DNA from: Nanobdellati archaeon
GTDB taxonomy: Archaea > Nanobdellota > Nanobdellia > Woesearchaeales > GCA-2686295
Assembly: GCA_014384375.1 (NCBI GenBank)
Contig: JACNFY010000016.1
Location: 1 to 60,655, forward strand
Direction: 5' to 3'
DNA length: 60,655 nucleotides
Shown here: positions 49,840-54,892 of the stretch, one piece after another
Layout: each line of letters starts with the position of its first letter
Numbering within the stretch: the stretch's first letter is position 1
Program-made: the position numbers and the translations under genes
The notes under the pieces: model-generated
The model's database searches: none
Seen by the model: the letters and a program-made list of their open reading frames with translations, nothing else
Told to the model about the DNA's origin: nothing

Positions 49840-50484
49840 ATGAGTATTCTAAAGAACCTCAAAAGAATAAATGATAATTTAAGAGGTGAGGTGAAGTTAG
49901 TAGTTGTCACAAAGAATCGCTCAGTTAGAGAAATCAATCAAGTACTTTTTCTAGGAGTTAAGGATATAGGGGAGAGTAGACTATATGAAGCAAGAGAGAA
50001 AAAGCCTTTGGTGAAAGGAGAAGCAAAGTGGCATATGATAGGACATCTTCAAAGAAACAAGGTTAAGGATGCTGTTGAACTGTTTGACATGATACAAAGT
50101 GTTGACTCCTTAAAACTCGCAAAGAAGATTAATAATGTTTGTAAAAGCAAAAATAAAAAGATGGTAGTATTGATTCAAGTAAATATTTCAAGAGAACCTC
50201 AAAAGTATGGAGTAATGGAAGAAGAACTAATATCTTTTCTAAAAGAGTTAAGTGAATTAAAGAATATAAAAGTTCTTGGATTAATGGCAATGGCGCCTTT
50301 TGTTGAACCAGAGGAAGCTAGGCCTTTCTTCAGAAGAGTGAGATTATTATTTCAGAAAGCAAAGAAAGAAAAGATACCTAATATAGAAATAAAATACTTG
50401 AGCATGGGAATGACAAACGATTACAAAGTTGCAGTACAAGAAGGAGCTAATATGGTTAGGATAGGAACAGCTATTTTTGATTGA
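49840..50484 (+). CDS. YggS/PLPBP-family PLP homeostasis protein
   Basis: LVVVTK, IGESRLYEA, WHMIGHLQRNK, SMGMTNDY, VRIGTAIF. Confidence 0.92.
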   Translation: MSILKNLKRINDNLRGEVKLVVVTKNRSVREINQVLFLGVKDIGESRLYEAREKKPLVKGEAKWHMIGHLQRNKVKDAVELFDMIQSVDSLKLAKKINNVCKSKNKKMVVLIQVNISREPQKYGVMEEELISFLKELSELKNIKVLGLMAMAPFVEPEEARPFFRRVRLLFQKAKKEKIPNIEIKYLSMGMTNDYKVAVQEGANMVRIGTAIFD

Positions 50485-51316
50485 ACTCTAAGATTTTCTT
50501 CTTCATAAAAGTTTGGTTATAACACTGTTCTTTTAAAGAACAAGCATTGCATTTGTTCTTATTATCACAGAAATCAGGTAGTTCTTTTTCTTCAAGAATT
50601 TTGATAACTTCATCACGAATCTTCAAAACTTTTTCCCTCAAAAAAGGATTGATAGCTATCTCTCTTGACTCATTAATGTCAAGATAAGTTACAAAACAAG
50701 TATCGACATTTTTTTCAGCTTCTTCGAGCATCATGACATAAGCAGCTAACTGTAACTTGTGGCCTGACCATACGCCAATATCGGGAGCTTTTCCTGTCTT
50801 TATCTCAAAAGGAATCACACTATCAGGATAAATCTCAACTTTGTCAATAACCCCTGTTAGCTTTAACTCTTCAGATTCAATTTTGAACTCAGACTCAATC
50901 TTTGGAGTTAGCTTGTCCCAAAGCTCTCTACCATAAATCTCATTCTTTGCAATAAAACTAAGCAGATTCTCTGCTCTTGATTTACATTCTCTAATAATAA
51001 GTGGCCACATTTGCTTGAAAAAATCAATAAGAGAAATATTAACTTCTATCAAAGCTTTTTTGTTGTTAGAGATAGTATTTCTGACAATATCTGCATAAAC
51101 ATTCTTATATAACTCCAAAATCTGTGTGTATGACAATCTCTTTGTGATTGATACTATTAAGTTTTTTTCTTTCTTATTTATCAGATCATAAACTTCGTGT
51201 CTTACAGAACCCTTAACCATAACGTCTTTAGGTGGAACAACAAGTTTGAGAACTTTTTCTAAAAAAAGTTTCCTACTACAGAACTCGTACTCAGAAATCA
51301 TTGTAACAGGTATCAT
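50471..51316 (-). CDS. Cas4-like PD-(D/E)XK exonuclease with Fe-S cysteines
   Basis: YEFCSRKLFL, GVIDKVE, PFEIKTG, QLAAYVMMLEE, C-terminal CDNKNKCNACSLKEQC. Confidence 0.85.
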   Translation of the reverse strand: MIPVTMISEYEFCSRKLFLEKVLKLVVPPKDVMVKGSVRHEVYDLINKKEKNLIVSITKRLSYTQILELYKNVYADIVRNTISNNKKALIEVNISLIDFFKQMWPLIIRECKSRAENLLSFIAKNEIYGRELWDKLTPKIESEFKIESEELKLTGVIDKVEIYPDSVIPFEIKTGKAPDIGVWSGHKLQLAAYVMMLEEAEKNVDTCFVTYLDINESREIAINPFLREKVLKIRDEVIKILEEKELPDFCDNKNKCNACSLKEQCYNQTFMKKKILEFNQK

Positions 51317-53609: not shown

Positions 53610-53622
53610 CTTTTTAAATAAT
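53610..53622 (+). promoter_or_regulatory. TATA-box-like element
   Basis: ctttttaaataat centred ~25 nt upstream of the RNA start near 53641. Confidence 0.55.
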
Positions 53623-53639
53623 CAATTATTATATTCTAG

Positions 53640-53712
53640 TGCGTGCAATGACCGAGTGAACACCCACTGAGGCTTTGCCTATGAAGAACGGAAGTAACTA
53701 GGGAGCACGCCT
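53640..53712 (+). ncRNA. Unclassified structured RNA candidate (~72 nt)
   Basis: GC-rich island; terminal stem GCGTGC/GCACGC, internal AGTG/CACT and AGGC/GCCT hairpins, own promoter. Confidence 0.55.
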
Positions 53713-53731
53713 ATAATTAAATAATAAAAAA

Positions 53732-54145
53732 ATGAAACGCATTTTTAATAGATTAGCCACCATATCAGCAACATTATTAGCTCCATTAAGTGTTGGATGG
53801 GGTTTTACTGGCGTAGTTGCAACAAAATTTGGTGTAAAATATTCAATTTTTCGTCCAGAAGGTATGCTTTTAGTCCTTCTGAATGGAATAATAGGCTTTG
53901 TTATAGGTGTATTTTTGATTTTTTTCTTATATGATTTTCTAAAAAAGAAAATCTGTGTATGTGCGGGGTTTGTATCATTGGTGATATTTGTAGCTTACAG
54001 TGTTTTTTTAATAATCTCAGCTCCTTTTTCTGCAAATATTCATGAAACATATGCTTTAATAATATTACAACTTATACCTTTATGGATTGGTTTTCTCTTT
54101 GGAACTATGATTTCATCGTTAGTTGTGGGCATAAGAAAAAAATAA
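53732..54145 (+). CDS. Hypothetical four-TM membrane protein
   Basis: Hydrophobic ORF downstream of RNA candidate. Confidence 0.6.
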   Translation: MKRIFNRLATISATLLAPLSVGWGFTGVVATKFGVKYSIFRPEGMLLVLLNGIIGFVIGVFLIFFLYDFLKKKICVCAGFVSLVIFVAYSVFLIISAPFSANIHETYALIILQLIPLWIGFLFGTMISSLVVGIRKK

Positions 54146-54290: not shown

Positions 54291-54821
54291 TTAAATTTTT
54301 TCAGCCATAATTTTAGTTATATCTTCATTGTAAGATAACCTTAACATATTAAATGAATCAATTTCGTTCATAAAAACGATGTTCTTCTTTTTGCATATTG
54401 AAAAATGATAAAACCCTTCTATTGCATTCCCACCTTTATCAGCAAAACAATCTGCAGGAATACTTGAATAATCTAATTCTGTATATCCTCCCTCTTGTTT
54501 TATATTATTAACTTTGTTATTATAATAATTGTTTGCATTATCAATATTATTAAATTTATAAACTGATAATATCCCTTGAGATAAGGTAGTGAATTCGAGT
54601 CTTTCAAAAATCAATTGATTTCCTGAAATAAAACCAACAACGCTATCTTTAAACCAATCACTGGTTACCTCTTTTACATCTCCCATTACCCATTCAGTAG
54701 CAATTTCTTCTCGACTTGGAAGTATATCTGATGGATTACCATTAAATAAGGTGTCTTTTTGGCATCCAGAAAGAACTAAAATAAATAAAAGTAATATATA
54801 AATAAAAATTATTTTTTTCAT
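54291..54821 (-). CDS. Lipoprotein, uncharacterised
   Basis: MKKIIFIYILLLFILVLSGC lipobox; ATG at 54821. Confidence 0.7.
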   Translation of the reverse strand: MKKIIFIYILLLFILVLSGCQKDTLFNGNPSDILPSREEIATEWVMGDVKEVTSDWFKDSVVGFISGNQLIFERLEFTTLSQGILSVYKFNNIDNANNYYNNKVNNIKQEGGYTELDYSSIPADCFADKGGNAIEGFYHFSICKKKNIVFMNEIDSFNMLRLSYNEDITKIMAEKI

Positions 54822-54892
54822 AGTAACCCCCAAACAGTCCATCTTTATGTGAAAGAACTATTTAAGTTTTTCTTTTACATCAAGTATCTTAT

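Follow-up and report, generated by a model that had tools for sequence, protein, structure and literature searches.

Box C/D guide sRNAs with relaxed boxes in an order of Woesearchaeota: predicted targets at U2552 and U2438 of 23S rRNA and alternation with RlmE-like proteins

The stretch analysed here (the window) comprises the 60,655 nucleotides of contig JACNFY010000016.1 of a Nanobdellati archaeon. On its + strand, a GC-rich island of about 72 nt (53640..53711, ends approximate) forms an RNA gene that is present as a single copy in its own genome, and covariance model R1, described below, matches it at 53637-53715 with 89.7 bits. A box A/TATA element, TTTAAA (53613..53618, +, within TTTTTAAAT, 53611-53619), lies about 27 nt upstream of the island. 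Its assignment as the RNA's own promoter rests on sequence and on enrichment in homologues, as a TATA-like motif occurs 31-44 nt before box C in 75 of 103 distinct homologues, versus 23 in one control window and 7 in another. A T-run was found 3' of the RNA in 53 of 121 cases, against 19 in one control window. The original prediction of a structured RNA behind an archaeal promoter, with a TATA-like box ahead of the island, is thus borne out. Promoters of their own have been reported for approximately 20% of archaeal C/D sRNAs (PMC7994747), and the promoter of the Woesearchaeota RNA contrasts with that share.

The gene (all parts on the + strand) is closed by a terminal stem, GCGTGC (53641..53646) with GCACGC (53705..53710), every pair of which covaries. 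Next to it, a degenerate box C (ATGACCG, 53648..53654; consensus RTGATGA) and a degenerate box D (GGGA, 53701..53704; consensus CTGA) form the outer C/D k-turn, with loop AAT at 53647-53649 and GA at 53650-53651; that is, AAT-GA-CC (53647-53653) faces GG-GA (53701-53704), with Watson-Crick C-G pairs at the consensus U.U and G-C positions. All 53 homologues share the T, G and A of RTGA as well as the GA facing them, and the pairs preceding the box D GA covary with box C. The inner motif consists of box D' (CTGA, 53667..53670; GA nearly invariant, CTGA in 25/53), an apical hairpin GGC-ttt-GCC (53671..53679; 100% paired, and each of the two modelled pairs changes on both sides) and box C' (ATGAAGA, 53681..53687; TGA invariant, neighbouring pairs covarying with D'). 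Between the motifs lie the D' guide, GTGAACACCC (53656..53665), and the D guide, CGG[A]AGTAACT (53689..53699).

Much of this architecture had been read correctly from the letters alone. The terminal pairing and an AGGC-ttt-GCCT hairpin had been proposed and both covary, and CTGA and ATGAAGA, placed correctly, had been likened to D'/C' boxes, a hint that the conserved GA and TGA and the covarying k-turn confirm. The outer boxes had been called weak, which holds for their sequences, although both are present as a k-turn nonetheless. Two other pairings did not survive. Covariation of an AGTG/CACT hairpin was not above shuffles (115/500), and AGTG and CACT are portions of the D' guide and the D' box; a competing CCTA/TAGG pairing was equalled by 31/500 shuffles, and of its four pairs one cannot form in 37 of 53 sequences.

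Homologues of the RNA are widespread. By blastn it was detected in 59 of 99 related genomes, the weakest matches being near chance, and a pattern scan matched many 'Candidatus Woesearchaeota' and 'Nanoarchaeota' MAGs among the named genomes. Bacterial matches in that scan have other spacings or another context and look like chance. Model R1 was built from 53 homologues and searched in the 353 genomes of the window's order. It matches 276 of the 353 (Woesearchaeota), a count that slightly exceeds the true orthologues as it includes weak matches in family f25, and 147 of the 180 good-quality genomes. In the alignment, GTGAACACC is invariant and CGG(A/T)(A/T)GTAACT nearly so, with variable helices between them; GTGAACACC is found in 57/57 strong model matches, and GTAACT in all 57 as well. 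The modelled structure consists of the terminal stem, the apical hairpin and, next to each of the two k-turns, two further pairs. Compensatory changes on both sides occur at 13 of 13 modelled pairs, and the covariation score is 0.688, compared with 0.220 (sd 0.016) for shuffles and at most 0.183 when the structure is slid. A second alignment of 62 model matches gave 0.636 against 0.196, a comparison that leans towards the model, to which this alignment was fitted. By folding energy alone the RNA does not stand out from shuffles (z = -1.74; 12 of 200 do equally well); what sets it apart is conservation in dozens of relatives together with covariation.

Few rRNA modifications are as widespread as Um2552, in the A-loop of 23S rRNA. 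As searches for 16S and 23S found no rRNA genes in the window's assembly, targets were read from the rRNAs of relatives, with numbering taken from alignment with E. coli 23S. The D' spacer, GUGAACACCC, is perfectly antisense to the A-loop segment GGGTGTTCAC in 13/13 rRNAs. Positions +2 to +11 of the guide pair with E. coli positions 2549-2558 as a perfect 10-bp duplex, placing +5 (A53662, counted from D') opposite U2552 in the 13 LSU sequences aligned. Members with A at +2 (L029, for example) lose the outermost pair and keep the other nine. In a test of 13 guides against 23S, and against 16S where available, each formed its best duplex at the A-loop; for the window's own guide the rRNA came from a congener (G002). 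By the N+5 rule this pairing selects U2552, so the D' guide very probably directs 2'-O-methylation of that nucleotide.

The second guide is less straightforward. An ungapped scan of rRNA gave nothing consistent for the D guide; when mismatches were scored, one site was common to all LSUs, and its duplex becomes continuous once one base is bulged. The D spacer pairs there with AGTTACTCCG (2435-2444), in every LSU that covers the site, through 7 bp, one bulged guide base and 3 bp. Position +5 from D (A53696) falls on U2438, and A53692 (+9) is the bulged base in the window. Among 12 genomes tested, duplex energy puts this site first in 6, second or third in 5, and outside the top three in G067. 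The tRNAs of the same genome offered no convincing target for this guide. That the D guide directs methylation of U2438 is likely, judging from complementarity and register. It is rather unlikely that only the D' guide methylates, with the D spacer serving as a chaperone contact in rRNA folding or matching by coincidence. Such a reading would suit the bulge in the duplex and the better sites found in some genomes, as well as our search of the open-access literature, which returned no paper naming an archaeal Um2438. Against it, GTAACT is kept in every strong match, and the guide positions that vary (+8/+9: A, T, an extra A, or absent in L277) are precisely those that would be bulged; L277, lacking the bulge, forms an unbroken duplex. 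The GTAACT guide is also retained in the diverged RNAs L240 and L244, although their D' guide has been swapped. Methylation at both sites is thus the reading that we carry forward. As a separate observation, the D guide GGAAGTAACTA also resembles, in the sense orientation, a 23S segment, GGGAGTAACTA (L031 and other LSU loci), a likeness that probably reflects partial complementarity between the GGGAGTAACTA segment and the 2435-2444 target.

The family as a whole has the layout stem - (N)RU GA - spacer - NNGA - hairpin - (N)RU GA - spacer - NNGA - stem, with spacers of 12 nt (C-D') and 12-13 nt (C'-D) and constant spacing from the guides to the GA of D' and D. It has structural features of C/D sRNAs, namely a k-turn core (sheared G.A/A.G pairs and the box C uridine) beside the terminal stem and an internal C'/D' motif with a short apical loop. 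The k-turn cores keep an invariant G, A and U, and their U, G, A and opposing GA stand in 53/53 homologues. Outside the core the boxes are relaxed. The first pair beside the k-turn is U.U in 19/53 and otherwise C-G, A-U, G-C or a mismatch, whereas the second covaries, being mainly U-A, G-C or C-G; the window copy has C-G at both. Canonical boxes are scarce, with RTGATGA as box C in 2/53 homologues and CTGA as box D in 15/53, and the window copy has the structural k-turn equivalent without the RUGAUGA/CUGA sequence consensus. With nothing but the RUGA/GA core retained in these degenerate boxes, the RNA escapes Rfam and box-based finders. With cmscan, the window copy gave chance matches only, none at the Rfam gathering score, and ARAGORN gave no tRNA, so that neither a tRNA, discounted from the outset, nor a catalogued Rfam family accounts for it. 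Among homologues nearer the consensus, 19 of 19 sub-threshold Rfam matches are C/D snoRNA families; for L268 and L274 the best are sR1 (RF01152) and snoPyro_CD (RF00095) (25.8 and 27.1 bits; gathering score 45 bits).

Could this be a new class of structured sRNA, outside C/D, that merely uses k-turns? The rarity of canonical boxes and the lack of an Rfam match for the window copy speak for such a class, which is nevertheless very improbable: both spacers are antisense to rRNA in the N+5 register, the sub-threshold matches of the homologues are all C/D snoRNAs, and the family includes members close to consensus (L030, for example). The sequence, structure and covariation of the RNA, its complementarity and register, together with gene content and distribution, give us high confidence in a free-standing gene for a box C/D guide sRNA, predicted to direct methylation at U2552 and U2438. 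The original labels, 'unclassified' and 'novel sRNA', were therefore wrong as to kind.

The RNA usually lies between the genes for PAN (proteasome-activating ATPase) and Trm5, in either orientation: PAN is near it at 75 of 135 loci and Trm5 at 79 of 135, about 30 loci being too short to show neighbours. In the window, the sRNA is separated from Trm5 by genes for a 4-TM protein (53732-54145) and a lipoprotein-like protein (54291-54842) without a Pfam match, an insertion into a neighbourhood otherwise conserved as PAN-sRNA-Trm5-FEN1. A Cas4/Csa1-like PD-(D/E)XK nuclease is encoded nearby (50471-51316, -). The proposal that the RNA is a cis-acting riboswitch or leader of the 4-TM gene draws on its position about 20 nt upstream of the ATG, but it is rejected, as the two downstream genes occur at no other locus, which excludes a conserved riboswitch role, the neighbours elsewhere are PAN and Trm5, and the competing pairing has no covariation support.

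RlmE/RrmJ (FtsJ) is a stand-alone methyltransferase for Um2552. Of the order's 353 genomes, 13 (families f8, f9, f28, f60, f69 and f84) encode full-length RlmE-like proteins. One example, L234, matches FtsJ in Pfam and, among solved structures, SPB1 and E. coli FtsJ, and by likeness these proteins are putative Um2552 enzymes. The RNA is present in none of these 13 genomes but in 276 of the remaining 340 (Fisher p = 1.1e-9, genomes being counted regardless of kinship), and its absence from the 13 holds with laxer filters. The two alternate inside three families, f8, f28 and f60, each of which shows both states. Genomes G075, G090 and G096 of the 99-genome set are also without a clear fibrillarin. 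Neither RNA nor RlmE was found in 64 genomes, some of them incomplete, and the window's own genome yielded no full-length RlmE.

Several diverged relatives of the RNA were observed in the order. G026, counted above as an RNA match, carries a related sRNA (L240:1501-1571) in which the U2438 guide is kept and the D' guide is replaced by TCTTTACCCAT; RlmE is also absent from this genome. In family f25, genomes G118, G131 and G031 encode a related-looking C/D sRNA (L241-L243; 1501-1580, 1501-1578 and 1501-1575) whose guides are mutually similar and differ from those of the main family (GAATCCCA; TGGAA). Given the different guides, these weak model matches were judged to be other C/D sRNAs and not orthologues, and no convincing rRNA target was found for them in the LSU and SSU examined. 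A diverged C/D sRNA of G100 (L244:1501-1572) has a D' spacer that can pair with CCGGGGATAAC, near the catalytic A2451 region, and a D spacer that still matches AGTTACTC.

Taken as a guide RNA, the ~72-nt transcript would fold with its terminal stem against the C/D k-turn and its apical hairpin against the D'/C' k-turn, and L7Ae, Nop5 and fibrillarin would bind this fold. Fibrillarin is encoded in the same genome (G000:C18:61807-62451) with Nop5 directly beside it, and L7Ae is universal in archaea (PMC5539422). We infer transcription, RNP assembly and methylation, as well as catalytic use of the second duplex: the D' spacer would pair with the A-loop (helix 92), where fibrillarin would 2'-O-methylate U2552, and the D spacer would pair with 2435-2444, one guide base bulged, for methylation of U2438. 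The guide RNA may thereby do the job of RlmE, the enzyme without a counterpart in the window's genome.

C/D-guided modification of U2552 is already known. It was described in five of seven archaea (PMC4644070), and Pyrococcus abyssi sR25, as cited in PMC2584109, is predicted to guide U2669, the equivalent of E. coli U2552. That archaeal C/D sRNA has its target nucleotide in common with the RNA described here; as far as its description there goes, the Woesearchaeota family differs in its putative U2438 D guide, its clear terminal stem and the degeneracy of its boxes. The Rfam families sR1 and snoPyro_CD share the archaeal C/D architecture. In yeast, snR52 guides Um2921 (= U2552), with Spb1 as back-up (PMC11121408): a C/D guide likewise serves the A-loop uridine and a stand-alone FtsJ-type enzyme is the alternative, but this system is eukaryotic and yeast has both, whereas the Woesearchaeota RNA and RlmE-like proteins were never found together. 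RlmE itself is a functional alternative to the guide RNA, but a protein enzyme. In halophiles an RlmE homologue is present and no guide was found (PMC2584109), which is the same alternation on a larger scale, and the RNA-guided, RlmE-type and SPOUT-type systems for Um2552 are a noted convergence (PMC12123411). Archaeal C/D sRNA sets have no target common to all seven species and are small in mesophiles (PMC7994747, PMC4644070). A search of the open-access literature returned nothing on Woesearchaeota C/D sRNAs among its top results. What is new is the family with its relaxed boxes, the invariance of both guides throughout the order, the bulged putative U2438 guide and the repeated exclusion between RNA and protein within one order.

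For annotation, these results mean that C/D finders requiring consensus boxes or the U-U pair can miss a deeply conserved DPANN guide RNA, and model R1 would annotate it. An order-wide sRNA with invariant guides that is exclusive with RlmE also makes the switch from guide to enzyme testable by comparison. The fullest form of the proposal, to which we give even chances, is a near-core, relaxed-box C/D sRNA of one DPANN order that directs Um2552 and, through a conserved bulged duplex, Um2438 as a second modification of the peptidyl-transferase centre, and that has been exchanged with RlmE several times independently. If this is true, RNA-guided and protein-only rRNA modification would be interchangeable on short evolutionary scales.
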